Assembly (NCBI GenBank): GCA_947628185.1
Contig: CANQYW010000013.1
Coordinates: 1-43,354, forward strand
Direction of reading: 5' to 3'
Source: an uncultured Oscillospiraceae bacterium
GTDB taxonomy: Bacteria > Bacillota > Clostridia > Oscillospirales > Oscillospiraceae
Length of the DNA: 43,354 bases
Each line of letters starts with the position of its first letter. Within the stretch, counting starts at the first letter, position 1. Below, piece after piece: positions 9,421-31,962 of the stretch. The notes under the pieces are model-generated. The model had not been told where the DNA came from and searched no databases. It saw nothing but the letters and a program-made list of their open reading frames with translations. A program made the translations under genes and the position numbers.

Positions 9421-9451
9421 CGCCCACACTAATTTTGGAGGTAAAATACTC

Positions 9452-9994
9452 ATGAAGGTCATGAAAAAGGCCGGACGGCCCGTCATCGCCTACGAGCTGG
9501 GCACGGACTCCCCCCAGATAACGGAGCTCATAGCCCAGGGCAAGGTGCGCCGGCTGGACGGGGACACCTACGAGGTCTTCTCCCTGGAGGCCGTGAACGG
9601 CGGCGGCGAGATCGCCCGCGCCGGGGACTTCATAAAGCTCGACACCAGCGGCGCGCCCTACCCCGTGGGCCGGGACTTCTTCCTCGCGAACCACAAACAC
9701 CTCTCCGGCAGCACATACGAGCAGATACCCCGGGAGCTCTCCGCCTGGACCACGAGCGAGCCCGTGACGCCGGAGATAGCGTTCCTCATGGAGCGCAAGG
9801 GGCTCGTCCTCGACCCCGCCGACCCCCGGCGCTACTTCACCGCGCCGCTCTGGGGGACGCTGGAGTCCGCCGCCAGCGACGCCGTCATAGTCCTCTATAG
9901 CGTCACCCGAAACATGGACGGGGAGATAACGGACATCTCCTTTAACTTCGTGGCCCGGAGGGAATTTGACGACACATATATAGTGCTATCCTGA
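9452..9994 (+). CDS. Unknown 180-residue cytoplasmic protein
   Basis: No family recognised with confidence. GGAGG precedes the ATG, and it lies 31 bases after the PP2C-like gene in the same direction, so it is probably the last gene of that run. No signal peptide or membrane segment is seen. Residues about 50-75 (GEIARAGDFIKLDTSGAPYP) resemble the short beta-rich PGDYG-type motif found in some small bacterial proteins; this is weak. A Trp/Pro-rich central part (ELSAWTTSEPVTPEI) and a C-terminal strand (ITDISFNFVARREFDDTYI) follow. Codon use matches the neighbours, supporting a real gene. It may be an adaptor or substrate of the TIR/PP2C pair. Confidence 0.75.
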   Translation: MKVMKKAGRPVIAYELGTDSPQITELIAQGKVRRLDGDTYEVFSLEAVNGGGEIARAGDFIKLDTSGAPYPVGRDFFLANHKHLSGSTYEQIPRELSAWTTSEPVTPEIAFLMERKGLVLDPADPRRYFTAPLWGTLESAASDAVIVLYSVTRNMDGEITDISFNFVARREFDDTYIVLS

Positions 9995-13800: not shown

Positions 13801-16800
13801 GACAACGATGGAGACAAGGGACTTCGCCACGACTGTCACCGTCAATGTCGCGGTCTTGCCGCCGTAGGTGACTGTGACGGGTTTCTGTCCGGGGGTGCTA
13901 AAGTCATAATTGACCGTCCAACCGCTGGTGACTTTCTCCGTGGTGCCGTTGTCATAGGTGAGCGTCAGCTCCATGCCGGTGTCCTCGAACTTTGTACCCT
14001 CGATGTACTCCATCTTGTCAGGATTCTTGGTGACGGCAATAGAGACAAGGGACTTCGCGACGACATTCACCGTCAATGTTTCGGTCTTGCCGCCGTAGGT
14101 CACGGTGACAGGTTTCTGTCCGGGGGTGCTAAAGTCGTAACTGACCGTCCAACCCGTCTTGACTACCTCAGTGGTATTGTTGTTGTAATAGAGGGTCAGC
14201 TCCATGCCGGCGTCCTCGAACTTCGTGCCCTCGATGTACTCAGTCTTCGTGGGTTGTTTGGTGATCTCGATACTCTCAACGCTCTTGGCCTTGACCGTCA
14301 CCTGGAATGTGGCGGTGAGGTCATTATACGTCACCGTCACGGTCTTCGTGCCGGGGGTGGAGAAGTCAGAGGGGATAGAAACTTCATACTCCCCTTCTTT
14401 AAGCGTCTCTTTTGATCCGTCGCTGTAGACCGCCTGCACCTCAAGCCCGGTGGTGTCAAGGGTCTGGCCCTCGATGTACTCAGTCTTCGTGGGCTGCCTG
14501 CTAATCTCGATGGACTCCAGTTCCCGCGCCGCGGGTATCTGGGGCAGCGTCACCGTCTCCTGACGCGGGACCGGAGTGTGAGTCTTCGGATCACCATTTT
14601 CCACCTCAGTGACGGTGATATTCGTGGTCTGCTCCGTCTCCTGGGGCTCGTAGGTGAAGGTGAGCTGGGCCGAGGGGGTGATCTCGGCGGCGTCGGCGAA
14701 GGCGATGGTGACTGTCCCGGCCGTGGCGTCAACGTGGTAGGAATCGAACGTCATTCCCATGGTGCAGCTCTTGAAGGTCAGCACCTCCGGGTCGTACTTA
14801 ACGGTCACCTTGCCGTTGGTGGTGTCCGCGCCCGTGAGGTCGTAGGTGACGGTCTTCGTCTCCTCGGCCACGTCGACGCTGGGGGTCACGGCGTAGGTGC
14901 GGACCGCCTCAGTTGTGGCCGCCGCGTTCATGTCGGGGTAGTCGGAGTAGTCGTACTGGTAGAGGACGCCCACCTGACGCACGTCGTCGTCAAACTCGCG
15001 GGTCATCACGAGGGAGTGGGTCGCGGGGTCGATGACCTGCACCTTGGCGGCGCCGTTGCCGACCTTGCTGACGAGCACGAGCAACTTTGAGTCGCTATCG
15101 TAGATCATGGAGGACGTGGCGTAGTTTTGCATCTGGCTCACGCCGGGGAGGCTGACGCCGTCCACGTGGCCCAAATGTTTGGTGTATGTGAGTTCTGTTT
15201 CGTAATAAGCATCCGGGATACTCGGGATACTGCTCTTTGATAAGCGGGGCGCCACATAGCAGTAGAGCTCGTAGAGGTCGCCGCCCTCGTTTATCACATA
15301 GTAGACGTCGGCCTCGTATTTTTTGCCTTCGTTTTCAGGATTTTTGTTTTCGGGCTTGTATTCACAAAGATCCTCGGTTTCCTCAACGCCCTTGTAGGCG
15401 ATGCCGCCCATGGCGCCGACGTTAGCGTAGCCCGTGCTAAATGACACCGACACCGTCTCAAATCCACTTTGAGATCCGCCAAGTCTCGAGCCCAACAGAA
15501 GGGTTTCATTTTTTGACACAGTCAGATAACCAAATTGGGTGAAATTACCCATGGTCCTGCCCGGCGCGCCGTCGGCGTGTGCGTGCTGGGCGTCCACGGA
15601 CGCCTCCAGGGACTCCCGCGTAAAATCTTTGGGGTTCACCCTGTAGGCCCAGGTGCCGCTAAAGAGGTAGAGGCAGTCCCCATCGTGGTTCAGCGTGCCT
15701 ACGGTGTAGGCCCCGGCGGAGGCGAGGCGCTTGCGGTTGTTGGGCGTGGCCGTGTTGAAGTTCTCCCAGTAGTAGAGGCCGTTGCCCTCGCAGAAGACGG
15801 CGGTGACGTCGATACTCGGCGCGGCTTTCACGTTGACCTCGAACTCACTGCTGACGCTCTCGCCGTTCAATGTAAGCGTAGCGGTGACGGTTGCCGTGCC
15901 CTCATTGACAGCCGTGACGAGCCCGCTTGCGCTCACAGTTACTGCGTTGCTGCTTGACTGCCACTTCACATCCGAGGAGGTATATTCCACATTCCAGGGG
16001 ACTACCACGGCGCTGAGCTGGGCCGTGTCCCCCACTACCATATCGCTCTTCGCGCCGATGATATTGATTTTGACGTCCGGGGTCTGTTCGCCGCCGACGA
16101 TGTTCAGCGTCGGAATTGCGGGGATACTCACCAGTCCCCGTACTGCATTGAAGAGGAGTGATGCTTCGTTTATGGTACCTTGATTGGTTTTCTGTACGAG
16201 GCACGCCCCATGCTCTAAATTAATCGAGGTAATTTCGTAGAGATGGTTGCTGGTGTTCGGACTGTTGAGATCGGCGGCATAGGCGGCGTAAAGGTCACTG
16301 CGGGACGTAGTTTTCCAGCTCAGACTGATAAAGCGTGACTTGGAGAGGTTACTGAGATTTCCAGTTGTTTCCACAGCCGTGTCTACGTCATCTTTAATTT
16401 CCCAGGAGATGAGTACGCTATTCCCCTTCGACTCGTCGTAGTGGGTGGCGACGGCAGTTCCATAGTTGTTGACGGCGAGGCCGTAAAGCGCGGCGGGCTT
16501 TCCTTTCACCGTCACCTTCTGGACGGACTTCACGTCCCCGCTCATCGGGTCTATCCGCCAGAGCGTATCCGTACCGTCCGTGGCGTAGAGCATCTTATCC
16601 TTTGTGTTGAAGGCGAGGTCTCGCACAACTTCCATATCTGAGGGGAGGTCGCAGACAAGACGTTTCTCTGTCACGTTGTCAAGGGGTGCAACGTAGAGGC
16701 GGCCATCCTCAAAAGCCTGCCAGAGGTAATTGTCCGCCGCGTCCGCGCCGGCGAGAAGATCCGACGCGCCGGCGTTGGCGAAGACGAACCCATTGCCATA

Positions 16801-19800
16801 TTTATTGTCCCTAAAGGAGAAACGGTCAGGCCGAACGGCGACCCAGTCGCCTCGGTTTGTCTCCGCGCTGCGGTCTGAGGATGAGCGGACGTTGGCGATG
16901 ACCATTTGGCTGAGATCCCGTTTCGCTCCGTAGGTGAAACTGTACATGCTCCTGTTGCCGGCATAGTCGCCCACGACGACGTTGTAGGCCCCGCCGTTTT
17001 GGAGTTTGCTGGTGTCAAACTCCACAACGATATTTTTGGTCGACTCGTCATCCACAGGAATATATCTCTCTATCTCATAGGTGCCGCTGCCGCTGTAGAG
17101 GCCCACGAAGGCCACGTTCTGTCCGTCCTCCGCGGTGACTTGAAGTTTTGTGCTGTCGGTCGCTGACTTCTCGATCTTCGTGACCTCCGGCGCCGTGCTG
17201 TCGAGCGCAACAGTGGTGGTCATATAGGCGCCCTCGCCCAGCGCGCCTTTCTCAATAAGTTCTTTTATCCGAGTGCCGTTTATTGGGCGGCCCGGCGTGG
17301 CCTCGTAGTACTCCGGCAGGGCCACGACACCGAGCTCGATCTTGTCACCCTCTTTTACATCGGTGCCCGCAAGGAGCTTTTCCAGCGTGACGCGGACGGG
17401 CAGGCTGGTGGAGGCGCGGCTCCAGCCGCCAAGGCTCCTGGGACTCGGGAAAGCGCAGGTCTGGTGGATGTAGACGGCGTCCAGGCGCGCCACCTTGCGG
17501 TTGCCGTCGGCGTCCCTCGTCATGATGGCGAAACAGAACGCGCCGGCGGGGCGGATGAGGGTGACCGTGACGCTGCGTATGGTGTCCTCGAGGCTCAGGG
17601 CCAGGTTATCGAGGGACATGTGGATGTTATTGTCGTAGGGGTTGACGGTCTGCTTTAAGAGGTTCCCGGCCTCGTCCTGGTATGTCATGTAGTTCATGTC
17701 GTAGACGCCGCTGGGGCCCTGGGTGTAGGGGACGGTCTTATTTAAGCCGTTGAAACTCTCAATAAAGCTGTTGCGGTCGAACATGGAGGGGGCGGACCAG
17801 TTGCCGCAGAACCCGAGGATGGGGATGGTGTGGGTGACGTCCGGCTCCGCGCCGTCGAGGGCTATGGGGATAACCGAGGTGAAACCCTCGAGGTACGCCC
17901 CCTTGGGGTAGTCCTCTGAGAGATCTTCGGTGACGTGGATATGTACCTTCACGGTGACGCTGCTGTTGGCCGGGACATTGACGGCGGAGGTCTTGAGCCC
18001 CTTTAAGATGAGGTGGGCGTCGTAGGTGGTGATCTTCCCGTCGTTGTCGAGGTCTGCGGTCTTGGGGGTCACGTCGAAACCGTCCCCCTTATTTTCGCCG
18101 GAGATGTAGTCGAGAAGGGCCTGGGCGTCCGCAACGTCCGTCTTCTTGTCCCTATTTACGTCGGCGCTGCGCTCGGACTCAAAGTCCACCGGCTTGCCGT
18201 CGATGGTATAGGTCACCGCCCCCACGAGGGCGCGGGTCCTGTCAGCGAGGTATGTGACGCCGCCCTCAACAACGGTGTCCTCGGTGAAAAGGTCCGTCTT
18301 GAATACGTAATCCCTCGCGGTGTCGCTCACGTTGTGGAGGGTGAAGGTGTAGTCAAAGGTGTTGGCGCCGCTGGGGCAGTCCCCCACCTCCGCCTTCACA
18401 CGGCCCCGGGTCTGGCCCGCGACCTCCAGGAACGATTTGGCCTCGGTGGCGCTCTTGGTGTTCAAAAGTCCGGCGCCCTGACGCAGCAGTGAGTAGTAGT
18501 TGCCGCTCGGGTCAGTCATGGGGTCCGCGGTGGACATGAGGAGCCCGCCGACGATCATGCCCTGGTTGAGGCTATTATTCATTTTACGCGCCCGGTCCAT
18601 GATGGACTGGCCGTTGTTAAACTGCGCCGTGTTGACGTACTGGGCCACAACTGCCGCCGCGCCCGCCACGTCCGGCGAGGCCATGGAGGTGCCGGAGAGC
18701 TCGGTGTAACCGTCATTTGTGTTACCATTTACGGAGTTCACCTTTGTGCCGTAGGCGGTGATCTCCGGCTGGAGCATGAGGCTGCTGGGGATGCCGTAAG
18801 AACTGCTCTCATTCACAGTGGAGGGGACAGACGCGCCGTCCGCCCAGGCCACGCCCATGAGGTCCGCGTAGGAGGAGGGGGGCGTGCAGAGGGAGAGGTT
18901 CACGTCGTCGGAGTAGAGTTTCTTCGGACGGCCGTCTCTATTCTCGTCTATCCAGGAGCCGTCGTTGCCCACAGCGCCCATGATGAGGACGCCCTTGGCG
19001 GTGAGCATATCAAAGACTTCGCCGAAGACGCTGTCGGCGCAGGAAAAACCCACCTCGGCGACGCCCAGGGACAGGTTCAGCACGTCCGCGCCCAGGATGA
19101 GCGCGTCCTCCACCGCCATGGCGATGACGGCGTCAGTACAGAGGGAGTTCCCCATGACCTTGAGGTTCAATATCTGGGCGTCGGGGGCCGTGCCGGAGAT
19201 GGCGCCGGCGTCCTCCGCCTTGACGTATGTGGTCTCCCCGCCCTCGCTCTCATGGGGTATGTAGGCGTTGGCCGCCGCGATGCCCGAGACGTGGGAGCCG
19301 TGGATGCCCGCGCTGCCGTTCTTCGTGAAGAGGCTGTAGTCGGAGTAGTTGTAGGCGAAGGGGATCTTGTCGTTTATGTAAAGTTCCTTCGGATCCGCGC
19401 CGTTAAGTCTAACGTGCAGTTTATCTGTGTTCTCGGCGGTGAGAACGTCTTGGAGCGTCATGAAATCGAGTGATTCCTTGTACGCTTTGAGCTCGTTATC
19501 GTCGATTTCGCCGTCCTCGTCGGTGTCCGGGGCGGACTGCCTGAGGGAGTAGTTGAGGGCGTCGGCGCTGAAGGACTGGTGCTCGTCGTTGACGCCGGAG
19601 TCGATTATGGCTATGCGGGAACCGGCGCCGGTATATTCGGTGGCCTCCTTCACGATCTCCTCAATGTCCTCATCGGTGGTCTGGACGCCCGTCAAAGGCT
19701 CATAGATCCGCTCCAGGACCACGTCCTTTACGCCCTCGATCTCCTTTATCTCCTCGATCTGGGAGTATTTCACCTCCGCGGAGATGAGGTTCGCCACCAG

Positions 19801-20199
19801 CGTCAGGTTCGTGACTACCTTGAGCTCACCGCCGCCCAGAACCTCCCGCTCGATCCTGTCCGTGACCTTCTCCTGCTCACGGCAGAGTCTATTCTGATAG
19901 GCCGAGGCCGCTTTGTTTGTCCCGATGGTGGCGATGGGGTAGCCCCTATCGAGGGCGGACTCGCCCTCCAGGATTATCGAGACGCGCACGATGTCCTCCG
20001 GCGCGTGCTCCGGGTCCTCCGGCTCCTCCTCCTCGAAGAGCTCCGGGAGGCGCGGGTCAATGGTGGGCTCTACCTTGGTGAACGCGATGCCGCCGTCGCC
20101 GTCCTCTTCCGGCGGCGCGGCGAAGGCGACCGTGGGGACGGTCCCAGCCAGCAGAACGACCGCCAGGAGGATCGACAAAATTGACCTCAGATGTTTCAT
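10897..20199 (-). CDS. Giant secreted subtilisin-like protease with dockerin and Ig-like repeats
   Basis: A 3100-residue wall-anchored S8 peptidase. Order: signal peptide (1-27); I9-type propeptide (about 68-168); catalytic domain with Asp200 (RIAIIDSG), His300 (HGSHVSG), oxyanion Asn412 (GAVGNDG) and Ser505 (SGTSMASP), so active; an EF-hand loop (225-236) in the insert between Asp and His; Fn3-like segment (about 590-675); dockerin-like pair (679-737); propeller-like region with WR-rich strands; Big2-type Ig domain; cohesin-like stretch; 15 Ig-like repeats (Big_3-like, 77 residues each); IPSTGDE sorting signal, membrane span and RKKRNH tail. AAGGAG precedes the ATG. It resembles C5a-peptidase-type surface subtilases, but substrate is unknown. 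No strong promoter is visible in the 66 bases upstream, so read-through from the RyR-like gene is possible. Confidence 0.93.
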   Translation of the reverse strand: MKHLRSILSILLAVVLLAGTVPTVAFAAPPEEDGDGGIAFTKVEPTIDPRLPELFEEEEPEDPEHAPEDIVRVSIILEGESALDRGYPIATIGTNKAASAYQNRLCREQEKVTDRIEREVLGGGELKVVTNLTLVANLISAEVKYSQIEEIKEIEGVKDVVLERIYEPLTGVQTTDEDIEEIVKEATEYTGAGSRIAIIDSGVNDEHQSFSADALNYSLRQSAPDTDEDGEIDDNELKAYKESLDFMTLQDVLTAENTDKLHVRLNGADPKELYINDKIPFAYNYSDYSLFTKNGSAGIHGSHVSGIAAANAYIPHESEGGETTYVKAEDAGAISGTAPDAQILNLKVMGNSLCTDAVIAMAVEDALILGADVLNLSLGVAEVGFSCADSVFGEVFDMLTAKGVLIMGAVGNDGSWIDENRDGRPKKLYSDDVNLSLCTPPSSYADLMGVAWADGASVPSTVNESSSYGIPSSLMLQPEITAYGTKVNSVNGNTNDGYTELSGTSMASPDVAGAAAVVAQYVNTAQFNNGQSIMDRARKMNNSLNQGMIVGGLLMSTADPMTDPSGNYYSLLRQGAGLLNTKSATEAKSFLEVAGQTRGRVKAEVGDCPSGANTFDYTFTLHNVSDTARDYVFKTDLFTEDTVVEGGVTYLADRTRALVGAVTYTIDGKPVDFESERSADVNRDKKTDVADAQALLDYISGENKGDGFDVTPKTADLDNDGKITTYDAHLILKGLKTSAVNVPANSSVTVKVHIHVTEDLSEDYPKGAYLEGFTSVIPIALDGAEPDVTHTIPILGFCGNWSAPSMFDRNSFIESFNGLNKTVPYTQGPSGVYDMNYMTYQDEAGNLLKQTVNPYDNNIHMSLDNLALSLEDTIRSVTVTLIRPAGAFCFAIMTRDADGNRKVARLDAVYIHQTCAFPSPRSLGGWSRASTSLPVRVTLEKLLAGTDVKEGDKIELGVVALPEYYEATPGRPINGTRIKELIEKGALGEGAYMTTTVALDSTAPEVTKIEKSATDSTKLQVTAEDGQNVAFVGLYSGSGTYEIERYIPVDDESTKNIVVEFDTSKLQNGGAYNVVVGDYAGNRSMYSFTYGAKRDLSQMVIANVRSSSDRSAETNRGDWVAVRPDRFSFRDNKYGNGFVFANAGASDLLAGADAADNYLWQAFEDGRLYVAPLDNVTEKRLVCDLPSDMEVVRDLAFNTKDKMLYATDGTDTLWRIDPMSGDVKSVQKVTVKGKPAALYGLAVNNYGTAVATHYDESKGNSVLISWEIKDDVDTAVETTGNLSNLSKSRFISLSWKTTSRSDLYAAYAADLNSPNTSNHLYEITSINLEHGACLVQKTNQGTINEASLLFNAVRGLVSIPAIPTLNIVGGEQTPDVKINIIGAKSDMVVGDTAQLSAVVVPWNVEYTSSDVKWQSSSNAVTVSASGLVTAVNEGTATVTATLTLNGESVSSEFEVNVKAAPSIDVTAVFCEGNGLYYWENFNTATPNNRKRLASAGAYTVGTLNHDGDCLYLFSGTWAYRVNPKDFTRESLEASVDAQHAHADGAPGRTMGNFTQFGYLTVSKNETLLLGSRLGGSQSGFETVSVSFSTGYANVGAMGGIAYKGVEETEDLCEYKPENKNPENEGKKYEADVYYVINEGGDLYELYCYVAPRLSKSSIPSIPDAYYETELTYTKHLGHVDGVSLPGVSQMQNYATSSMIYDSDSKLLVLVSKVGNGAAKVQVIDPATHSLVMTREFDDDVRQVGVLYQYDYSDYPDMNAAATTEAVRTYAVTPSVDVAEETKTVTYDLTGADTTNGKVTVKYDPEVLTFKSCTMGMTFDSYHVDATAGTVTIAFADAAEITPSAQLTFTYEPQETEQTTNITVTEVENGDPKTHTPVPRQETVTLPQIPAARELESIEISRQPTKTEYIEGQTLDTTGLEVQAVYSDGSKETLKEGEYEVSIPSDFSTPGTKTVTVTYNDLTATFQVTVKAKSVESIEITKQPTKTEYIEGTKFEDAGMELTLYYNNNTTEVVKTGWTVSYDFSTPGQKPVTVTYGGKTETLTVNVVAKSLVSIAVTKNPDKMEYIEGTKFEDTGMELTLTYDNGTTEKVTSGWTVNYDFSTPGQKPVTVTYGGKTATLTVTVVAKSLVSIVVTKNPDKMEYIEGTEFDSTGMELTLYYNNDTNEVVKTGWTVSYDFSTPGKKVVTVTYEGKTTTLTVNVVAKSLISIAITKNPEKMEYIEGTKFEGTGMELTLYYNNGTNETIKTGWDVKYDFSTPGKTDVTVTYEGKTTTLTVTVVAKSLVSIAITKDPDKMEYIEGTAFEDAGMELTLTYDNGTTETIAEGWEVEYDFTAPGEAVVTVTYGGKTTTLTVTVVAKSLVSIAITKNPEKMEYIEGTAFEDAGMELTLTYDNGTTETITEGWEAEYDFTAPGEAVVTVTYGGKTATLTVTVVPKSLVSITISKNPDKMEYIEGTAFEDAGMELTLTYDNGTTETITEGWEAEYDFTAPGEAVVTVTYGGKTATLTVTVVPKSLVSITISKNPDKMEYIEGTEFEDAGMELTLTYDNGATETITEGWEVSYDFTAPGEAVVTVTYEGKTTTLTVTVVPKSLVSIEITKDPTKMEYIEGTEFDGTGMELTLYYNNGTNEVVKTGWKVDYDFSTPGDKTVTVTYEGKAATLTVTVVAKSLVSIAVTKDPDKMEYIEGTEFDGTGMELTLTYDNDTTETITEGWEVEYDFTALGEAVVTVTYGGKTTILTVTVVPKSLVSISISKDPDKMEYIEGTEFDGTGMELTLTYDNGTTDTITEGWEVEYDFTAPGEAVVTVTYEGKTATLTVKVVPKSLTGIELTALPEKLVYLEASEELDVRGGKLTLRYDNGTTEEIDLTEDMISGFDNTKPGKQTVTVTYGGFTATFEVTVRAKDIDHIAVTRAPDKMEYVEGTEFDPKGMEVTIYYNNGQTEVITGGWEVVYAFDKVGPSAVKVSYAGHEAALTVTVVAKSLTRIEVTKLPDNTEYTKGDKFDGAGMELTLYYDNGTVETITEGWTAEYDFSVPGEREVKVSYGGVETVLTVTVKDTAPAKPDEGKDDEIPSTGDETLSIWFFLMLSSGAVLLVLLAGRKKRNH
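11041..14523 (-). repeat. Array of 15 tandem Ig-like repeats, mostly 231 bp
   Basis: Thirteen units are 231 bp (77 residues); units 1 and 13 in protein order are 240 bp. Each begins near SLVSI and contains KMEYIEGT, GMELTL, a Trp in GW, and VTVTYGGKT. Bases 12611-12861 and 12842-13092 are identical over 251 bases (offset 231), showing a very recent unit duplication. The array probably projects the protease away from the wall. Confidence 0.95.
17989..18165 (-). other. Dockerin-like module inside the protease
   Basis: Two calcium-loop repeats: DVNRDKKTDVADAQALLDYI and DLDNDGKITTYDAHLILKGL (residues 680-735). Both keep the DxNxDxxxxxxD spacing of type I dockerins. It is internal, not C-terminal as is usual. 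Dockerins bind cohesins, suggesting assembly with another surface protein or with the cohesin-like region of this same protein. Confidence 0.75.
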
Positions 20200-22314: not shown

Positions 22315-25300
22315 TCACTTCTCCTGCCCGCCGCAGGCCTTGGTGAATATAGCCGCTATCTCGTCGCCGGTGAGGTGGTTATTGCGCATTAGCTCCTCGA
22401 CGATGGCGTCGATGGCGGGCCTGTTGGCGCTAATGAGCGCTATGGCGTTCTCCATCTCCTGGGCCAAGATCTTGTTTACGGCGTCCCGGACACGGCCCGT
22501 GAGTTCGCTGTTCCTGGCCGCCTGCTGGTCTATCACCGCGAGGCCGAACTCCTCGTCCATGCCGTAGGTGCAGATTATGCGCCGGGCCACGTTCGTGGCG
22601 TTCTCCAGATCCCCGCTGGCGCCGGTGGAGATGCCGTCCCGGTCGCCGTAGTAGACTATCTCGGAGGCCCGGCCGCCGAGGGACGTGCGGATCCTGGCCA
22701 AAAGCTCGTCCTTTGTATATAGGGCCTTGCCCTCGTTGTCGCCGTGCTGCATGTAGCCGCCGTGGTTGGCCCGGGCGACTATGGTGAGGTAGGAGGGCGT
22801 CTCCCCGCTCTTCCAGCAGAGGAACGCATGGCCGGCCTCGTGGCGGGCGGTGCGCTGGAGGAGGGATATGTCCCACTTCTTCTCCTCGCCGCTGACGAAT
22901 GTCTCAAACGCCTCCTCAAAGATGGCGTCCGTCACCTTGAGGCCCCCGTCCCTTATGGCGGTGCGCAGCGAGAGCTCCATAATGGACGCGAGCTCCGCGA
23001 GACTCATGCCGGTGGAGCGGATAGCTATGTTCTCCACCTCGGCGTCGCTTATCTCAAACGCCTTGTTGCCCTGGAACCTGAGGCGCAGGTAACGCACCCG
23101 CTCCTCCCGCTTGGGGAGATCGATATAGACGCGCCTGTCGAACCGGCGCATGAGGGCCGGGTCCAGGCTCTTCTCCCCGCCGGGCTCCACGTCAAAGTTC
23201 GTGGCGGCCAGGACGAACACCGGTTTTGTGGAGTCGATGTTGAAGCCGTCCATCTCCGTGAGGAACGCCGTGAGGGTGGCGTCCACCCCCTCCGCCCTGT
23301 CGCCGCTGCGGCGGTCCCGGGCTATGGCGTCTATCTCGTCCACGAAGAGTATCGCCGGGGCGTACTTGCGGGCCGTGCGGAAGAGCTCGTGGACGTTCTC
23401 GGGCCCCTCGCCCACGTACTTCTTGAGGAACTGGTTCCCCTCCGCCGTTATGAAGGTGACGTCGGACTCCCTGGCCATGGCCTTTGCCAGCATAGTCTTG
23501 CCCGTGCCCGGAGGGCCGTAAAGCAGGACGCCCCTGGGGGCGCTGACGCCCGTGCCCCTAAAGCGCCTGGGGTTCTTTAGATATTCCACAAAGTACCTGA
23601 GCTCCTTTTTGGCGTCCTCCGCGCCGATCACCTCGTCAAAGGTGACGTCCGGCTTTGAGACGCTGCTCAGGATGTTCTTCTTGTCCTCCGCGTCAATGGC
23701 CACGGCCATCTCGAAGTCAAAGAGTTTTATCTCCGCCGTCCGGCCGTCGGGGGAGAGGCTCTGGGCGGTCTCGAAGGTGACGAGCTTATTGGATCTCGCG
23801 AGCTCCGCCATACTGCGCTGCTGGTGGATCATCTCCGCCACGGTGCGGATGCCCTCCGCGAAGGCGCCGCCGTCCTCCGTGAGCTCCATGACACCCCTGA
23901 CGCCCTGGCGCAGGAAGGATATCTCCTCCTCGGCCTTCAGGCCCTTGCCGGGGTGCTGGAGTATGTAGATGGGTATCTCGGGGTAGCGCTCCCGCACGAA
24001 CCAGAAGAAGTCCCTGGCGGCGGAGTCCACGTCCTCCACGTTGAGGTACTGCCGCTCCTCCGGGCAGCCGTAGCCTAAGTCGATGAGGATGAAACTCACA
24101 TCCCGCTCCCGGAGGAGTTCGTTTGCGGTGTCGATGGTCTGGGCGCCGGTGAATGTCACGTCCCCGCAGAGCTCCCGGCAGTCGTTCACCGTCGCCTCGT
24201 CGGCGAACACCAGCACCTCCTGGCGCTCGCTGTCGGTGAAGAGGGCCATTATATCGGCGTCCGCCTTGGGCAATTCCACGCCCATGCGGATCTTCTCAAT
24301 ATTCTCAATACCGCCGGAGGAGTTGCCGGAGGCCATGAGCCTGAAGAGCTCAAAGAGCTCGCCGTCAAAGAACGTCTCCGCCCGGCTCTTGATGGTCCTG
24401 GCGTCGGCGGAGCCGCCCTCCGCGAAGAGGAGCGCCGTGTAGACCTGCTCGTCTATGTCCACGTCGATGCCGATCTCCCCCTCGAAGTTCTTGGCGTGGC
24501 GCAGGACCTCCTTCCGGGCTATGGCCCGGAGGTTGTGGGCCGTCATGTGGTTGAACATCACAACGTTGCCGGAGGCGAACCTGGAGCACAGCGCCGGCGG
24601 GAAGAAGGGCACGCCGGTGTCCTCGCGGATATCGTTCTGGAGGGCGTTCAGTATGACCTTCCGGGACACACCGGAGAAGTCCCCGGCGTCCGGGGTGTCG
24701 TAGAGCTGTTTGCCGGCGTTGGTGGTGAAGATGATTATGGCGTCGGTGAAGGAGACCTCTTTGTCGGTGTAGTTATCACGGAGCCTGCCGGCGTCCAGCA
24801 TCTGGAGGAAGAGGTGTATGACGTTTATATGCGCCTTCTCTATCTCGTCGAATAGGAGCACGCACTTGCTGTTCTTCGCCACGAAACTTGTGACGTTCCC
24901 CTCCTTCGCGCCCTTGTAGACCCGGTCGGAACCGCAGAACTCGATGTTCGCCTCCTTGTCGGAGTACTCGCTCATGTCAAAGCGCATGAAGGGCAGCCCC
25001 AGGACGTTTGCCGCCGTCTCGGCGAGGAACGTCTTGCCCACGCCCGGAGGGCCGGCGAAGAGGAAGGTGGCCCGGGGCTTCACCCGGGACTTGTCCGTCA
25101 TGGCCAGCAGCTCCGCCTGGAAGTACCCGGTGGTGAAGACGCTTATGGCGTTGTCCTGCCCGTATATGGTCTCCTTTAGGAGGTCGTGGGTGGACTTCAC
25201 CTTCTCCGTGAGTTTGGCAACCGCCATTTTCGGGCTCTCGGCGGCGTCGTCAACATCGTCAAGGCCGTCCCAAATGACGTCGTCTTCCTCGTCAATAGTG

Positions 25301-25869
25301 TCGTCGTCAAGGCCGGTCTCGGCGGAGGCGGTGGTCTCCGTCCCGGTGCCGGACTTCTTCCCCCCGCTCACATAGTCCTCAAAGGAGGTGGAGAGCAGGC
25401 CCTCAAAAAGCGCCGCCATGTCGTCGTCGGAGTCGTCCCCCGAGTCCGCCTTCTGCCCCTTGGCGATGACCTTCTTTATGAAGTCGCTGGGGTCGGAGAC
25501 TATGCTCTCCAAGAGCACCCCGGGGGTCAGCGCCTCCAGACCCCTCTCCTTGGCCCTCTCCCGGGCCTTGTAGATGTGCTGCTGCATGTATATCCCGTCG
25601 ATGAAGTCCCCATTCCCGCCGGTGACCCGCTCCAGGATGAAGTTCTTTATGTCCGCGTAGTTCTCCCCGGCGGAGGGCAGCAGTTTCGTCAGCATCCCAG
25701 CCAGGGCCCCCTTCTCGCCCTCGCTTATGTCGTACTGGGTGGAATCCGACACGAAGTCGATGAGGGAGACTATATATCTCTCGGCGGTGAAAGCCACGTT
25801 CATACCGCCGATGGTCTTGGAGTGCTCTATAAGTTTCTCCAGAAGCCTGTCGTTTTTCATGTCAGCCAT
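22315..25869 (-). CDS. Soluble double-AAA+ / receiver-like / M41 protease fusion
   Basis: 1184 residues, no membrane segment. Order: helical N-domain (1-135); acidic low-complexity linker (140-210); ClpB-D2-like AAA+ with Walker A GPPGVGKT (273-280), Walker B LLFDE (338-342), sensor FTTNAG (381-386) and sensor-2-like DARTIKSR (489-496); a receiver-like domain (551-665) with ILIDLGYG holding a possible phospho-Asp (597); FtsH-like AAA+ with GPPGTGKT (785-792), LFVDEID (841-847) and MRRFDRR (907-913); M41 metalloprotease with HEAGH (1010-1014) and the third-ligand motif ASGDLENAT (1084-1092). FtsH normally has one AAA domain and membrane anchors. All catalytic motifs look intact. It should unfold and degrade proteins, perhaps gated by the receiver-like part. 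A perfect consensus promoter lies upstream; the RyR-like gene follows after 24 bases. Confidence 0.9.
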   Translation of the reverse strand: MADMKNDRLLEKLIEHSKTIGGMNVAFTAERYIVSLIDFVSDSTQYDISEGEKGALAGMLTKLLPSAGENYADIKNFILERVTGGNGDFIDGIYMQQHIYKARERAKERGLEALTPGVLLESIVSDPSDFIKKVIAKGQKADSGDDSDDDMAALFEGLLSTSFEDYVSGGKKSGTGTETTASAETGLDDDTIDEEDDVIWDGLDDVDDAAESPKMAVAKLTEKVKSTHDLLKETIYGQDNAISVFTTGYFQAELLAMTDKSRVKPRATFLFAGPPGVGKTFLAETAANVLGLPFMRFDMSEYSDKEANIEFCGSDRVYKGAKEGNVTSFVAKNSKCVLLFDEIEKAHINVIHLFLQMLDAGRLRDNYTDKEVSFTDAIIIFTTNAGKQLYDTPDAGDFSGVSRKVILNALQNDIREDTGVPFFPPALCSRFASGNVVMFNHMTAHNLRAIARKEVLRHAKNFEGEIGIDVDIDEQVYTALLFAEGGSADARTIKSRAETFFDGELFELFRLMASGNSSGGIENIEKIRMGVELPKADADIMALFTDSERQEVLVFADEATVNDCRELCGDVTFTGAQTIDTANELLRERDVSFILIDLGYGCPEERQYLNVEDVDSAARDFFWFVRERYPEIPIYILQHPGKGLKAEEEISFLRQGVRGVMELTEDGGAFAEGIRTVAEMIHQQRSMAELARSNKLVTFETAQSLSPDGRTAEIKLFDFEMAVAIDAEDKKNILSSVSKPDVTFDEVIGAEDAKKELRYFVEYLKNPRRFRGTGVSAPRGVLLYGPPGTGKTMLAKAMARESDVTFITAEGNQFLKKYVGEGPENVHELFRTARKYAPAILFVDEIDAIARDRRSGDRAEGVDATLTAFLTEMDGFNIDSTKPVFVLAATNFDVEPGGEKSLDPALMRRFDRRVYIDLPKREERVRYLRLRFQGNKAFEISDAEVENIAIRSTGMSLAELASIMELSLRTAIRDGGLKVTDAIFEEAFETFVSGEEKKWDISLLQRTARHEAGHAFLCWKSGETPSYLTIVARANHGGYMQHGDNEGKALYTKDELLARIRTSLGGRASEIVYYGDRDGISTGASGDLENATNVARRIICTYGMDEEFGLAVIDQQAARNSELTGRVRDAVNKILAQEMENAIALISANRPAIDAIVEELMRNNHLTGDEIAAIFTKACGGQEK

Positions 25870-25986: not shown

Positions 25987-26019
25987 AGTGAGATATTTGA
26001 CGCCCCATAAACACCGCAG

Positions 26020-26034
26020 CCGCCACCCTGGCGG
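26020..26034 (-). terminator. Short hairpin after the toxin gene
   Basis: CCGCCA and TGGCGG with a 3-base loop, 18 bases past the toxin stop. There is no U-tract, so its role as a terminator is weak. Confidence 0.3.
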
Positions 26035-26051
26035 ATGACGGCCGTATGTAT

Positions 26052-26711
26052 TCATTTTTGGTTGAACACGGTATCCAAAATCATTTGGCAATTATCATCG
26101 TCGCTATGCTCGCCCAGTAGTCTCATAATTAGGTCCAGTTTTTCCTGCACTTGAGAGTTTTGCTGTCTTAGCTGATTGTACTGATAGGAATACGACGGGA
26201 AGTGTCTGGAAAAAGCGTAATATTCGATCGCCCTATATGTATCGGAGGATGGGTCTATATACCCGTCGTTTTGTCTGTATTTTATTCTCGATACGCTGAC
26301 AGACCTCAAATCATTCAGTTTCAGTACAGAGTCGTGCGTGAGAAACGGATAATCCGCACCTTTGAGCAGGAAGTAATTACTTTTGCCTTGCGGATTGTCT
26401 TTCGGGTGTATCGCGTTTACGTGTTCCGGGATTTGAGGATTAAAGGAGCAGATCGGTAGCACATATAAAAGCAGTTTTCCGGAAACTCCGATAACAAGCC
26501 CTCTGTGCTCGTAAGACATCTCAGGAACGTAGTTTTTGCCAAACTCAAATTGATATATCTCGCCCTTTAAAACTCGCCTATTCTGCTTAGCTCGTTTCCT
26601 GCTTGCGGCCCAAAATATATCGGACTCCGCGTATCTGTCTATTTTACCTTGGTTTTTGATAGTTAATGTCACGTCATTGAGGGCGCTTATTGATTTTATA
26701 TACTTATCCAT
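26052..26711 (-). CDS. PemK/MazF-like toxin, possibly of a type III-like toxin-antitoxin locus
   Basis: A 219-residue protein. The core VLKGEIYQFEFGKNYVPEM followed by EHRGLVIGVSGKLLLYVLPI matches the first strands of the PemK/MazF fold, and HDSVLKLNDLRSVSVSRI matches its later part, so an RNase-like toxin is likely. An extra N-terminal helical part (1-45) and a C-terminal coiled-coil-like tail (NQLRQQNSQVQEKLDLIMRL) are unusual. The gene is visibly AT-richer than its neighbours, a sign of transfer. No protein antitoxin gene adjoins it. Instead a consensus promoter, a hairpin-rich leader and a perfect intrinsic terminator stand before the ATG, the layout of type III systems in which an RNA inhibits the toxin. 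GGGGAT lies just before the start. An alternative is a solitary toxin with attenuated expression. Confidence 0.72.
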   Translation of the reverse strand: MDKYIKSISALNDVTLTIKNQGKIDRYAESDIFWAASRKRAKQNRRVLKGEIYQFEFGKNYVPEMSYEHRGLVIGVSGKLLLYVLPICSFNPQIPEHVNAIHPKDNPQGKSNYFLLKGADYPFLTHDSVLKLNDLRSVSVSRIKYRQNDGYIDPSSDTYRAIEYYAFSRHFPSYSYQYNQLRQQNSQVQEKLDLIMRLLGEHSDDDNCQMILDTVFNQK

Positions 26712-26724
26712 GTCTTATCCCCAC

Positions 26725-26754
26725 AAGAAAAGGCCATAGACACCTCTATGGCCT
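26725..26754 (-). terminator. Intrinsic terminator/attenuator just before the toxin start
   Basis: AGGCCATAGA and TCTATGGCCT form a perfect 10-bp stem with a GGTG loop, followed on the minus strand by TTTTCTT. It ends 14 bases before the toxin ATG, so most transcripts should stop before the coding region. Confidence 0.85.
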
Positions 26755-26848
26755 GGACCGGGTACCATGCCGTACCCGGGCGGTCTCATCGACCTAAATT
26801 CCTTTCTCGATCGCGGCCTCATCGGCCAAAAGCAGTTACAAACCGCCT
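26755..26848 (-). ncRNA. Candidate leader RNA (possible RNA antitoxin)
   Basis: The stretch from the promoter start point to the terminator encodes two 13-base hairpins with the same loop: GGCC-GATGA-GGCC (26827-26815) and GGTC-GATGA-GACC (26794-26782), 33 bases apart. The stem difference is a compensatory C-G to T-A change. A third hairpin, CCGGGTAC-GGCATG-GTACCCGG (26779-26758), follows. Repeated hairpins before an attenuator and a MazF-fold toxin resemble type III antitoxin RNAs, though the repeats are short. Confidence 0.5.
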
Positions 26849-26854
26849 GGTATT

Positions 26855-26883
26855 ATTATATATAAACGTAGGAGGATTGTCAA
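26855..26883 (-). promoter_or_regulatory. Consensus sigma-A promoter of the leader RNA and toxin
   Basis: On the minus strand, TTGACA (26883-26878), 17 bases and TATAAT (26860-26855): perfect in both boxes. Such a strong promoter ahead of a terminator fits production of an abundant short RNA. Confidence 0.9.
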
Positions 26884-26923
26884 TGGATTTTTACGGAAAG
26901 ACGGCAACGCGCAGCACGGACAC

Positions 26924-26943
26924 CGAAAGGTCAAAGAGGCGGA
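26924..26943. repeat. 20-bp direct repeat, copy 2
   Basis: Exact copy of the repeat at 25967-25986. It lies 40 bases upstream (minus-strand sense) of the -35 of the toxin promoter and 38 bases past the stop of the CARF-nuclease gene. Confidence 0.85.
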
Positions 26944-26981
26944 GTAGTCAGTCTAAAGTAAAACAAACCGCAAAAAATACA

Positions 26982-28238
26982 TTATGCCGTCTCTGGCCGC
27001 CAGAAGGAGCGGACGCTCCGGACGAGCTCGTCCTCGTCCATGGACTGCACGCCCTCCACGAGCTTAATGCCCATGTCCCGGGCCCGCTGCCTCACGTACT
27101 CCGAGGCGTCGGTATTCCCCAGGGCCGTGGCCACAAGGACCTTCCGCGCGTACTTGCCCCCGAACCTCTCCGCCACGGTGCTCAGTTTATAGAGCTCGTT
27201 TATATCGACGCACCCGTTTTTGCAGGAGACGAACACCGGCAGGAAACCCCGCATCATCATGACGTCCACCTCGTTCTCGGTGTCGTGACTGCCGGGCTCT
27301 AAGTGGATCTCGCCGTCCCAGTCGATGAAAACGCCGCTGAGCACGTCGTTATATGTGTATGAGCCGTCCTTCTCCACGGCGTTGAGGGCGGCGGAGAATA
27401 TCTTGAGCTCCAGTATCTCCCCCGCTTTCGTGAGGCACCGTTTCACCTGCTCGTCCTTGTAGGTTATGGTGAAGACGTCCTCATAGTCGTGGGCGTCGAT
27501 GAGTCCCGCGTGGTAGAGGCGGTTTATGAGCCTCCGGCTGAATATGTACTTCGCGCCGATGGACTCCAGCGCGCCCACGAGATAGTCCTTGGGGGCCGTC
27601 GTGGTGAGGGTGTCGTCCGCCGGGTCCCGAAACTGCTCCGCCAGCATAAATACGCCCAGCTGTGTGTTCCAGAGCCGCACGTCCTGGCGGCATATATCCC
27701 ACATGGTGTCCACGTCGTCAAGGAGATCCCCATCGAGATCCCATAGATGGGTGGTGTAGGGTATGAGGTCGTCGTAGACTATCTCCCCGCCGTAGATCCT
27801 TATGTTCTCCTCCAGCGTCAGCACCGGGAGCTCAGATTCAAGTATCGTCCTGCCGTCCAAATCGCAGTCCTGGACAGTGTTATTTTGTATGTTAAAGCGG
27901 TGCATCTGGATGTTCCTGTCCCTGTAGCGCTCAAAGACTATACCGGTGGCCACGAGAAACGCCTCGTCCCCGCCGGTGACGTCAAATACGCAGTCATCGT
28001 ACGTCTCCACGATGGAGGACAGCACCTCCACCACCCCCGCCATGTCGCCCCGGTTCACCGACCGGGCTATGAACTCCACCTCCACGCCCCGTTCCCGGAG
28101 GATCCCGGCGTACCTCTCGGCGTGGGCCGTCAGCGTCTTTAGCTTGTCCCCCACCAGTATCACCCTGTCAGGGGGGTTCGTTATGCTGGCGCAGATATTC
28201 TCTATGAGCGCCCTGTCAAAATACTCTATGTATGTCAT
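26982..28238 (-). CDS. CARF-domain nuclease, Card1/Can2-like (DUF1887)
   Basis: A 418-residue protein. The N-terminal part (about 25-125) is a CARF-like Rossmann domain: VILVGDKLKTLTAHAERYA, then CVFDVTGGDEAFLVATGI with the TGG ligand loop at 88-90. CARF domains bind cyclic oligoadenylates in type III CRISPR signalling. A winged-helix-like middle (about 215-280) follows. The C-terminus is a PD-(D/E)xK nuclease: Glu278 (GEILELKIFSAAL), Asp325 (ENEVDVMMMRG) and VSCKNG with Lys340. The residue normally acidic in the ExK pair is Ser338; whether this weakens cutting is unknown. GGGGAG precedes the ATG. No cas gene or array is within the window, so the activating nucleotide must come from elsewhere. 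Confidence 0.82.
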   Translation of the reverse strand: MTYIEYFDRALIENICASITNPPDRVILVGDKLKTLTAHAERYAGILRERGVEVEFIARSVNRGDMAGVVEVLSSIVETYDDCVFDVTGGDEAFLVATGIVFERYRDRNIQMHRFNIQNNTVQDCDLDGRTILESELPVLTLEENIRIYGGEIVYDDLIPYTTHLWDLDGDLLDDVDTMWDICRQDVRLWNTQLGVFMLAEQFRDPADDTLTTTAPKDYLVGALESIGAKYIFSRRLINRLYHAGLIDAHDYEDVFTITYKDEQVKRCLTKAGEILELKIFSAALNAVEKDGSYTYNDVLSGVFIDWDGEIHLEPGSHDTENEVDVMMMRGFLPVFVSCKNGCVDINELYKLSTVAERFGGKYARKVLVATALGNTDASEYVRQRARDMGIKLVEGVQSMDEDELVRSVRSFWRPETA

Positions 28239-29446: not shown

Positions 29447-29716
29447 TCACTTATCGAGCTCCAGGGACCCCTGCTCCAGCTCCGCGCCGTCGCCGCCGGA
29501 TCGCTCAACCACCCTGTAGACCGCCCGGCCCCGGGCGCCGGCAGTTCCGAGACGTGTAAACTCGTCATAGATAAGCTGGAACGCTTTCAGCCTCTCAAGA
29601 CAGCTCCCGCAGGAGCCTATGTGCCCGTTCACCTTGGAGGCCAGTTTAAGTGACGGGCCGTCAAGCCTGTCCATGGACACGAAGGCGATGAGCTCGTCAT
29701 TAGTCAGATGTTCCAT
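29447..29716 (-). CDS. Zinc-finger anti-sigma factor (zf-HC2 type), soluble
   Basis: An 89-residue protein with LTNDELIAFV at the N-terminus and the zinc motif HIGSCGSC (His-x3-Cys-x2-Cys), the signature of ZAS anti-sigma domains. No membrane segment follows, so it is a cytoplasmic version that may respond to redox state or to partner proteins. Its start overlaps the end of the sigma gene by 17 bases, so the pair is translationally coupled. It should bind and inhibit the neighbouring sigma factor. Confidence 0.75.
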   Translation of the reverse strand: MEHLTNDELIAFVSMDRLDGPSLKLASKVNGHIGSCGSCLERLKAFQLIYDEFTRLGTAGARGRAVYRVVERSGGDGAELEQGSLELDK

Positions 29717-30551
29717 CGTCCATCATCCGTCCCTTCGCCGCGCTCTCACACATGGCACGATTCACAAGGCCGTTCATCCGATTTACCCAGTCGCTGATCG
29801 TAGCCTTACCACCTTTCCTCATAAAGAACTCCCTATATGGGATCTCATAGTATCTGCGGCCGCCCCCAAACTCCCGCATGAGCTGTTTTTTTATCTTCTC
29901 GTCCTCCTCCGGGGTTATGACGAGCCAGGGTATGTTCCCGGCGGCGGCGCGTATCATCTCGTACATCTCCCCCAGGGTCCTGCTCTCAAAGGACTCCAGG
30001 AGCATGGAATTTGACTTTATCTTCGTCACGTCCAGGTCCAGCATCATGATGGACTGGGCGAGCCAGGTTAGTATCTTGTAGACCTGGGACCTTGAATTTA
30101 TGACGATGGAGAATGCCCGGGCGAGGGCCTCCACCCGCTCCTCGGTTATGTCCAGCGTCTCGTCCTTGGCGGGGACACGCTCCTCCTCTCCCTCATCAAA
30201 GCCCCGGACTTTCGCGTTCACGCGCCGGAGGGCATTCGCGAAGTCGCACTTTATGTTCCAGGCCAGCTTGAACATCCACCTCTTGAACCACTCCTGGTCC
30301 CGGTTGACGCCGCCCTCCACGCCCTCCCGCAGGAGGAAGGACGCCTTACAGGTCTTTATGAGCCGGAGCTGTATCTCCTGCATGATGTCGTCCTCCAGCA
30401 TCCGGCCCCGGAGCTGGATGTCGTCGGAGCACCAGCGCCTCACCTGTCTCCTCAGGGTCTTCTCCGCGATGGCGCAGAGCATGTCGAAGGACGATCCGTC
30501 CCCGCAAAGCAGCTCATCGACCATGATGTCAAACTCTTCCGAAGTAAACAT
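29700..30551 (-). CDS. ECF-like sigma factor, divergent
   Basis: I start this 283-residue protein at the ATG at 30551 rather than the longer frame to 30767, because the extra 72 residues look non-coding and overlap promoter-like sequence and iterons. Region 2 is visible: RMLEDDIMQEIQLRLI (core-binding) and WFKRWMFKLAWNIKCDFANALRR (the -10 recognition helix pattern). Region 4 is not clear; the C-terminal KGGKATISDWVNRMNGLVNR might be a helix-turn-helix. The overlapping anti-sigma gene supports the call. It is longer than ordinary ECF factors. It may direct expression of this island. Confidence 0.68.
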   Translation of the reverse strand: MFTSEEFDIMVDELLCGDGSSFDMLCAIAEKTLRRQVRRWCSDDIQLRGRMLEDDIMQEIQLRLIKTCKASFLLREGVEGGVNRDQEWFKRWMFKLAWNIKCDFANALRRVNAKVRGFDEGEEERVPAKDETLDITEERVEALARAFSIVINSRSQVYKILTWLAQSIMMLDLDVTKIKSNSMLLESFESRTLGEMYEMIRAAAGNIPWLVITPEEDEKIKKQLMREFGGGRRYYEIPYREFFMRKGGKATISDWVNRMNGLVNRAMCESAAKGRMMDDGTSD

Positions 30552-30603
30552 GCTCCGCCTCGCCCCACTCTCCCCTCGGACTAATACCAGTTTAGAGTAC
30601 CAT

Positions 30604-30622
30604 ATTATAGGGCGATTGTCAA
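30604..30622 (-). promoter_or_regulatory. Promoter-like elements before the sigma gene
   Basis: On the minus strand a perfect TTGACA (30622-30617) is followed after only 7 bases by TATAAT (30609-30604). The spacing is too short for one promoter; each may pair with weaker partners (TTGACA with TACTCT at 17 bases). About 50 bases remain to the start codon. Confidence 0.35.
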
Positions 30623-30690
30623 TACACACAGTTAAAGTGCCGGCACTGCGGACATTATGGACCACATTGACAAATGGTTTCGGGTCCCCG

Positions 30691-30730
30691 GAGCGCTCCA
30701 GCGTCCTCCACCGGCCTCCACTGGGCTCCA
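30691..30730 (-). promoter_or_regulatory. Four TGGAG elements at exact 10-bp spacing
   Basis: Read on the plus strand, each of four successive 10-base blocks ends in CTCCA (30696-30700, 30706-30710, 30716-30720, 30726-30730). One helical turn between copies puts all on one DNA face, as for cooperative binding sites. They lie just after a TATAAT (30740-30735, minus strand), upstream of the sigma gene. Confidence 0.55.
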
Positions 30731-30786
30731 CACAATTATATAACGGGGCGCTGGGGAATTTTCGCACATCCCCGGCGGGAAATCAT

Positions 30787-31953
30787 TTAGTTTTCGATGT
30801 GCACCTTCTGTCCCCAGGGTGGCTCCACGCCGCTATTGACGATTATCCACACCACCGGCACGCCCATGGCCGCGGACTCGTCGGGGAAATTGCAGTAGCC
30901 GTCGGTGAGGATAATGACGAGGCTGGGAAGTCTCTCCGCCATGTGCTGGCGCATGTACCTGAATATGGCGGCGAAGTTCGTCCCGCCGCCCCCCACGGGC
31001 TTCACGCGCCGAAGTTCCTCCACCGTCTCAAAGGGCACGGGGTCGGTGACGGCGGTGTCGAAGAAGGATATCTCCCCGCGCAGGGTGTCTATCTGCTCCA
31101 CGGCGTCCTGCACCTCGCCGAATGCCTGGGCCAGGGCCTTATCGGATATGGAGCCGCTGGTGTCCACCAGGAACCAGAGGTTCTCCACCATCTCCCCCGA
31201 GATGTCCGCCTGGAAGGAGGGCATTATGACGTCCCCCTGGTAGCGCCTGTCGGGGGATAAGTAGGTAAAGTCGCTGGAGTCGTTTCTTATGTAGTCCTGC
31301 AGGAGCTGCCGCCAGTTCGTCTTCGGGGTGTGGGATATCTCCTTGAGGTAGCGTTTCAGCGCCCCGGGGACCCCCGAGCCCCAGTTGGAGCTCCGGGAGG
31401 CCTCCCGGATGTTCGCCTCCCACACGTCCGAGAGGCTCGGGTCCTTTATGCTGTCCCAGACGGCGTGGGAGTCCAGCGTCCCACTGAGCTCTATCCCCTC
31501 GGGACTGCCGCCGTCTTTGAGGAACATATAGTATATCTCCTCGGCGGTGTAGCGGTTCCCCTCGTTGCCGTCCGGCGCCCGGTGGAAGACCTGACAGCCG
31601 TCCACCGTGAACTCCTCCCGGCCATAAACTTCCAGTATGCAGGAGTTCACCACCGTGTCGCAGGCCACGTTATATAGGCGGTGGAGGAGCGTCCTGCCCC
31701 GGAGGCAGTGTTTCAGGACGCAGTGCATCACCTCGTGGAGCATGACGAACTTCAGCTCCTCGTCCGATATTCTCCACACGAACTCCGGGTCGAAAACTAT
31801 GCTCTGCATGTCGGTGTAGGCCGTGCCGCACTTTGAGAGGCCGAAACGGAGCCTCAGCAGGAGCCGGCCGAAGAAGGGGAACTCCTCCAGTAGCTCCGCC
31901 CTGTTGCGGGTGAGCCGCGCTGATATGGCGGCGGCCGTGGCTCTATTCTCCAT
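30787..31953 (-). CDS. vWA-domain protein with HEVMH metallopeptidase-like domain (DUF2201)
   Basis: A 388-residue protein. The N-terminal domain has LHEVMHCVLKHCLRG (His73-Glu74-His77) and a later VACDTVVNS with Asp99, the pattern of putative zinc peptidases of the DUF2201 family. The C-terminal domain is a von Willebrand factor A fold with a complete MIDAS: DTSGS (Asp264, Ser266, Ser268), Thr325 in GGGGTNF and Asp351 in LTDGY. Such proteins are encoded beside MoxR ATPases, as here with a 9-base gap, and are thought to work as metal-dependent partners of the ATPase, comparable in principle to ViaA with RavA. Both active sites look intact. Confidence 0.9.
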   Translation of the reverse strand: MENRATAAAISARLTRNRAELLEEFPFFGRLLLRLRFGLSKCGTAYTDMQSIVFDPEFVWRISDEELKFVMLHEVMHCVLKHCLRGRTLLHRLYNVACDTVVNSCILEVYGREEFTVDGCQVFHRAPDGNEGNRYTAEEIYYMFLKDGGSPEGIELSGTLDSHAVWDSIKDPSLSDVWEANIREASRSSNWGSGVPGALKRYLKEISHTPKTNWRQLLQDYIRNDSSDFTYLSPDRRYQGDVIMPSFQADISGEMVENLWFLVDTSGSISDKALAQAFGEVQDAVEQIDTLRGEISFFDTAVTDPVPFETVEELRRVKPVGGGGTNFAAIFRYMRQHMAERLPSLVIILTDGYCNFPDESAAMGVPVVWIIVNSGVEPPWGQKVHIEN

Positions 31954-31962
31954 AACGCCGCC

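Follow-up and report, generated by a model that had tools for sequence, protein, structure and literature searches.

A predicted soluble two-motor protease with a pseudo-receiver domain, encoded beside putative nucleotide-signalling genes in uncultured Clostridia

In ATP-dependent proteases the unfoldase and the peptidase are normally different subunits (ClpAP), or there is one kind of motor ring (FtsH, Lon). What could be the role of a single chain in which two different motors are joined to a peptidase? The question is raised by a gene found in a 43,354-nucleotide stretch of DNA from an uncultured Oscillospiraceae bacterium (assembly GCA_947628185.1, contig CANQYW010000013.1), the whole of which is referred to here as the window. 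A sequence-only reading of the gene had described its product as a soluble fusion, without membrane segments, of a ClpB-like AAA domain, a receiver-like domain and an FtsH-like AAA-M41 protease, had suggested that it may remodel as well as degrade, and had considered this architecture to be probably new. It is proposed here, with a rough probability of 0.45, that the product is a soluble dual-motor ATP-dependent protease operating within a stress or defence cassette that responds to a nucleotide signal, by a mechanism inferred from sequence comparison and structure prediction.

Architecture of the fusion protein

The chain was found to consist, in order, of an N-domain, a linker, a ClpA/ClpB-D2-type AAA+ module (motor 1), a receiver-fold domain, a beta-hairpin connector, an FtsH AAA+ module (motor 2) and an M41 peptidase (Table 1), with Pfam matches to AAA_2 (residues 265-395), AAA (781-917) and Peptidase_M41 (1006-1173). 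Its highest 19-residue Kyte-Doolittle mean is only 1.06, compared with 2.41 for the control, the ordinary FtsH of the same genome, and the fusion is thus taken to be without a transmembrane segment. That ordinary membrane FtsH is encoded elsewhere in the window's own genome (83% complete). The domain matches and the hydropathy bear out the fusion as described by the sequence-only reading, and the soluble architecture is well supported by sequence and predicted structure. A frameshift or assembly error joining two genes, a concern raised in the same reading, was ruled out by many independent collinear copies, since 42 further near-full-length copies align end to end with the window protein (n = 43; 45-67% identical to the window protein). 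This alignment (A2) omits L015 and L035, for which longer antisense frames were picked, the fragments L039 and L048, and the shorter second copy in L016; L083 and L084 are present in alignment A1 only.

Both motors and the peptidase appear intact, as had been claimed for the two Walker A/B pairs and the HEAGH motif. In motor 1 the Walker A residues G276-T280 (with K279 and T280), the Walker B residues D341 and E342, and R430 and R491, which we take to be the arginine finger and sensor 2, are invariant in 43/43 aligned proteins, and the pore-loop-like position 318 is Tyr or Phe in 42/43. In motor 2 the same invariance (43/43) holds for K791 and T792, D844 and E845, and R908 and R909, with a pore-loop-like YVGEG whose first position is Tyr or Phe in 35/43. 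The peptidase residues H1010, E1011 and H1014 (HExGH) and D1087 are each present in 43/43; H1010, H1014 and D1087 are presumably the zinc ligands, D1087 being the third.

Among the Clp models of NCBIfam, ClpA was the top match for motor 1 (residues 210-480, 165.7 bits), and these models match the fusion from their second ring onward. The pattern of the ClpP-docking IGF/L-type loop was found in 0/43 proteins between residues 384 and 424, so that, judged by this loop, the fusion is not a Clp partner of ClpP. It differs from the D2 (NBD2) module of ClpA and ClpB in lacking both the D1 ring and this loop, and in having the protease built in. For residues 734-1171 the top NCBIfam model was FtsH (TIGR01241), at 347.6 bits against a cut-off of 600; because the score lies under this cut-off and the membrane anchor is missing, the fusion is not an FtsH by definition, and it differs from that family also in its extra N-terminal motor and receiver.

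The N-domain is the least conserved part of the chain. It is possibly a diverged Clp_N, its best matches being to the ClpA N-domain (E-value 0.025), and Pfam Clp_N was found in just 2/43 members; the full-chain fold comparison is hardly any test of this domain. A second, divergent branch (L084 and L111) has a different N-domain and L110 has none, and the core is therefore made up of motor 1, receiver, motor 2 and peptidase. No description of a two-motor, receiver and M41 architecture was found in the domain and defence libraries or in the literature searched (subscription papers being mostly outside its reach), in agreement with the claim of novelty.

Table 1. Features of the fusion gene and its neighbourhood in the window.
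Feature	Residues or length	Position	Strand	Basis or remark
Fusion protease gene, ATG start	1184 aa	22315..25869	(-)	unbroken open reading frame (ORF)
Helical N-domain	1-141	25447..25869	(-)	ClpA N-domain best matches, E 0.025
Acidic linker, predicted disordered	142-210	25240..25446	(-)	predicted local distance difference test (pLDDT) 28-38
ClpA/ClpB-D2-type AAA+ (motor 1)	213-530	24280..25233	(-)	
Pseudo-receiver, (beta-alpha)5	545-692	23794..24237	(-)	predicted model, fold matches
Beta-hairpin connector	693-735	23665..23793	(-)	predicted structure
FtsH-type AAA+ (motor 2)	736-995	22885..23664	(-)	
M41 zinc peptidase	1000-1180	22330..22872	(-)	
RyR/TrkA partner (membrane protein; TrkA_N-like and RyR-like parts)	674 aa	20266..22290	(-)	both Pfam matches below cut-off
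Card1-like CARF + PD-(D/E)XK partner	418 aa	26982..28238	(-)	Pfam Card1_endonuc below cut-off; PADLOC CARF4--CARF_PDDEXK E 2.6e-24
YbjN-like partner	160 aa	28330..28812	(-)	below Pfam cut-off
YbjN partner	156 aa	28864..29334	(-)	Pfam E 6.3e-7
Small zinc-finger-like protein, occasional partner		29447..29716	(-)	by eye, no Pfam match; 7/45 loci
Sigma-factor-like protein, occasional partner, weak		29700..30767	(-)	E 8.5e-4, below cut-off; 7/45 loci

The pseudo-receiver

The fold matches of the predicted model of the domain between the motors include NtrC1, NtrX and RssB, and a conserved insert, LNxEDVxSxxRDFF, occupies residues 609-622. The equivalent of the phospho-accepting Asp, D597, is Asp in 42/43 proteins. 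The first acidic position is acidic in 0/43 and the second in 14/43, so that the acidic pair for Mg2+ is found in 0/43; the conserved Lys is absent from the four positions 660-663 in 43/43, and Thr or Ser occurs at position 638 in 1/43 and at the next position in 16/43. With the acidic pair and the Lys both at 0/43, phosphorylation of the receiver as a gate is unlikely, as is a canonical phospho-receiver on the same residues. The earlier suggestion of a receiver-like gating domain of signalling type thus stands as regards the fold, in the predicted model, and is not supported as regards phospho-signalling.

NtrC-type regulators and RssB also couple a receiver to an AAA+ machine, which the receiver controls or feeds; in the fusion, where a similar role is proposed, the receiver has a motor on either side within the same chain and lacks a full phosphorylation pocket. 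According to PMC7226468, RssB is an adaptor through which ClpXP turns over sigma-S.

Distribution and phylogeny

A scan of genome contigs gave 79 loci, with the fused chain in 45 (L003-L047); L048 is a 319-residue piece, and the remaining 33/79 match only stretches within residues 132-516. All 45 fused loci are titled as metagenome-assembled genomes or uncultured organisms and named as Clostridia or Clostridia genera, many of them from herbivore guts. The distribution is patchy, with matches spanning both motors in only 4/300 genomes of the window's family, including one (G095) in which they are split in two frames. A profile of the receiver region matched 12/345 genomes in the order, 2/391 in the class and 3/398 in the phylum, each count including the window's own genome. 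These matches sit in open frames of 881-1206 aa, of which L110 and L111 were read as proteins, as were L083, L084 and L085 from the scan of the window's family. The copy of G095 (L085, 617-3756 (+)), which belongs to the second branch, lies in overlapping frames of 324 and 738 aa and reflects either breakage of the gene or faulty assembly.

In a tree of the FtsH part, built from every third row of A1 and six more (L126, on a wild branch, was left out), 21 sampled fused rows were split from 17 unfused FtsH rows by a 100/100 branch. The simplest reading of these sequences is a single origin of the fused FtsH parts.

Gene neighbourhood and co-occurrence

When the window genes were searched by tblastn against the 45 loci, matches were obtained for YbjN in 23, RyR/TrkA in 20, the Card1-like protein in 15, and the sigma-like and zinc-finger-like proteins in 7 each, the best match of every partner being on the fusion's strand. 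At least one of YbjN, RyR/TrkA, Card1-like and sigma-like was present in 23/26 loci with more than 4 kb on both sides, the Card1-like gene in 12/26. These counts are from tblastn; gene-cluster counts miss genes (antisense frames; cluster c5 is antisense to YbjN). A small ORF lies near the fusion in 14 loci, and the one copy tested is a stand-alone Pfam RyR domain (E-value 5.5e-39). The N-domain and the RyR/TrkA, Card1-like and YbjN neighbours had been overlooked by the sequence-only reading, whose observation holds and whose interpretation holds in part. The window Snf2, MoxR and VWA genes and a gene for a 219-aa protein (26052-26711) were rejected as partners, as tblastn gave matches in 0/45 relatives' loci.

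TIR_2 was found in 10/111 near-flank ORFs (+ strand only) versus at most 1/111 far-flank ORFs (111 of 210, both strands; among the first 25 of 150 families listed), and our own TIR profile identified 14 TIR ORFs in 8/45 loci. This enrichment close to the fusion bears on Thoeris-like TIR/ADPR signalling, in which a TIR enzyme would be paired with a sensor of its product.

Across genomes, the RyR/TrkA protein was found in 14/15 with the fusion versus 4/70 without it, the latter comprising 4/45 in the window's family and 0/25 elsewhere, and the Card1-like protein in 8/15 versus 4/45; the fusion-less genomes were taken from lists at hand and are a non-random set. Within the window's family alone, RyR/TrkA was present in 3/4 genomes with the fusion and 4/45 without (p 0.007). 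The company of RyR/TrkA is recurrent, whereas Card1-like, YbjN, sigma-like and TIR proteins are more loosely linked. By their sequences these neighbours resemble components of nucleotide-signal systems. Phage RyR-domain proteins are described in PMC13232231 as cleaving or binding the cyclic ADP-ribose signals that TIR enzymes make.

A separate observation concerns a fusion-less genome of the same genus (L129, 2015-6253 (-)), which encodes a 1412-aa protein with a protein kinase, an RyR/TrkA-like part and a Card1-like CARF-nuclease. Its gene adjoins a TIR-kinase gene and one for a 211-aa protein resembling, by eye, that at 9452-9994 of the window. To judge from its domains, this protein would tie kinase, RyR/TrkA and Card1-like functions together.

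Proposed mechanism and its significance

In the proposed mechanism the chain would assemble as a hexamer. Its ClpA/B-D2-type ring would pull a client in and hand it over to the FtsH ring with its zinc peptidase chamber. The N-domain would select clients or adaptors, and the pseudo-receiver between the rings may act as a spacer and as a switch that docks proteins or takes up a ligand, rather than one that is phosphorylated. Clients would be chosen once a nucleotide signal, perhaps a product of TIR proteins, is bound by the RyR/TrkA and CARF proteins, and the whole could be an accessory cassette that serves gut Clostridia in stress response or phage defence, on top of the housekeeping FtsH. The most specific version, an immune or stress machine whose RyR and CARF proteins sense a TIR-made nucleotide signal and switch the self-contained dual-motor protease, with the pseudo-receiver binding a ligand or serving for docking, must be regarded as doubtful. 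If it were true, regulated proteolysis would be an effector arm of nucleotide signalling, with TIR proteins providing the signal and RyR and CARF proteins as its readers; given the link with RyR, CARF and TIR proteins, it becomes testable whether regulated proteolysis is an output of bacterial nucleotide second messengers. A peptidase joined in one chain to two different motors would also offer a natural test of substrate hand-over between motors, and a naturally soluble FtsH would be useful in its own right.

Several findings weigh against the proposed protease cassette. On the genomic side, (i) RyR/TrkA is no more than 5 kb away from the fusion in only 5/14 genomes (G000, G245, G314, G319 and G482), more than 10 kb off on the same contig in 2/14 and on another contig of these draft genomes in 7/14, (ii) kinship confounds the co-occurrence, with 11/15 positives outside the window's family and 45/70 negatives inside it, and 5/15 positives hold the divergent second branch only, one of them (G095) split, (iii) no partner occurs in L035, L040 and L047, although the flanks of these three loci are long, and (iv) the sole TIR gene identified in the window is 14 kb from the fusion and on the opposite strand. 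As to the proteins themselves, the predicted structure is of a single chain, with a predicted template modelling score (pTM) of 0.60, and in the fusion PADLOC found only generic AAA parts. In the fusion loci 15/15 aligned Card1-like proteins carry SCK (338-340) at the site where Card1 relatives have ECK; the nuclease activity is therefore unsure, and the site is perhaps changed or dead. The tree tool warned of long branches meeting, namely the second fused branch and ordinary FtsH. Finally, viral contigs gave no fusion copy in a search able to find close relatives only, and no phage or plasmid record matched as much as 80% of the query at a single site; a phage or plasmid origin was rejected on these two results.

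Alternative explanations and known systems

The alternative that survives best, although unlikely, is an enzyme of general protein quality control, which would do in one chain the work of the ClpG/ClpK disaggregase and FtsH pair and clear aggregates under stress. The ClpK/ClpG and FtsH heat-resistance loci are the nearest functional parallel, likewise holding both enzyme types in one locus, but as two separate proteins and among other neighbours. The FtsH of these loci is membrane-bound. A tblastn search with the fusion hit plasmid-borne close pairs of the same two enzymes, which two of the records listed name clpK and ftsH. However, small heat-shock protein, DegP, HtpX and thioredoxin were absent among the 25 flank families listed of 148, the recurring neighbours being RyR, CARF, YbjN and TIR proteins instead, and no ClpG-type N-domain match was obtained for the fusion. 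That ClpG islands carry FtsH is stated in PMC8024975, in favour of the quality-control explanation.

Control by a two-component system, with the protease switched through phosphorylation of D597, appears improbable. The receiver fold and the near-universal Asp at this position agree with it, as does a hybrid-kinase-like ORF read by eye in the window (39276-42212), but the residues at the acidic pair, the Lys site and position 638 given above do not, and the kinase ORF is 13 kb away, outside the stretch clustered for neighbours.

Little can be said for a type III CRISPR auxiliary effector acting via the CARF neighbour. The PADLOC CARF4 match and the Card1-like neighbour in a third of the loci (15/45) are in its favour. 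However, long-flank loci often have no CARF gene near the fusion, and Cmr2 was not found in the window's genome, at its 83% completeness. For Csm1 there was no match over the cut-off in the 15 fusion genomes, themselves incomplete, and the 5 below it covered the first ~110 of 753 positions.

That the fusion belongs to the FtsH-type vWA-MoxR ternary conflict systems described in PMC7159879 (Kaur et al., 2020) is barely credible: like the fusion these systems have two AAA units and conflict-type neighbours, and the window's MoxR and VWA genes lie 5-7 kb upstream of the fusion, but both of their AAA units are of FtsH type, the first being a copy without P-loop and Walker B where that of the fusion is ClpA/B-D2-type and intact, and the MoxR/vWA genes that form their core are, like Snf2, not conserved near the fusion.

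The fusion falls short of the IetA ATPase of the IetAS defence system: the NCBIfam score was 139.6 against a cut-off of 510, and the PADLOC IetA match covers only residues 679-990 of 1184.

Other features of the window

The 219-aa protein at 26052-26711 (-) resembles PemK/MazF by eye and has no Pfam match; G+C is lowered to 0.52 at 26001-28000, the stretch holding this gene. A Snf2-type helicase, a MoxR-like AAA protein (just below the Pfam cut-off) and a DUF2201 VWA protein are encoded in a row at 30787-36362 (-), perhaps as a separate system, since they are not common to the fusion's relatives. Further along, at 36385-37827 (-), is a 480-aa ORF without a Pfam match, in which hydrophobic stretches were seen by eye together with an HEVRH zinc-peptidase-like motif. 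At 7379-9994 (+) a TIR protein (TIR_2, E-value 6.7e-19), a PP2C-like protein (below cut-off) and a 180-aa protein without a Pfam match follow one another, a possible TIR signalling locus by sequence. Directly downstream of the cassette, 10897-20199 (-) encodes a 3100-aa surface protein, subtilase-like by eye, with many similar repeats.

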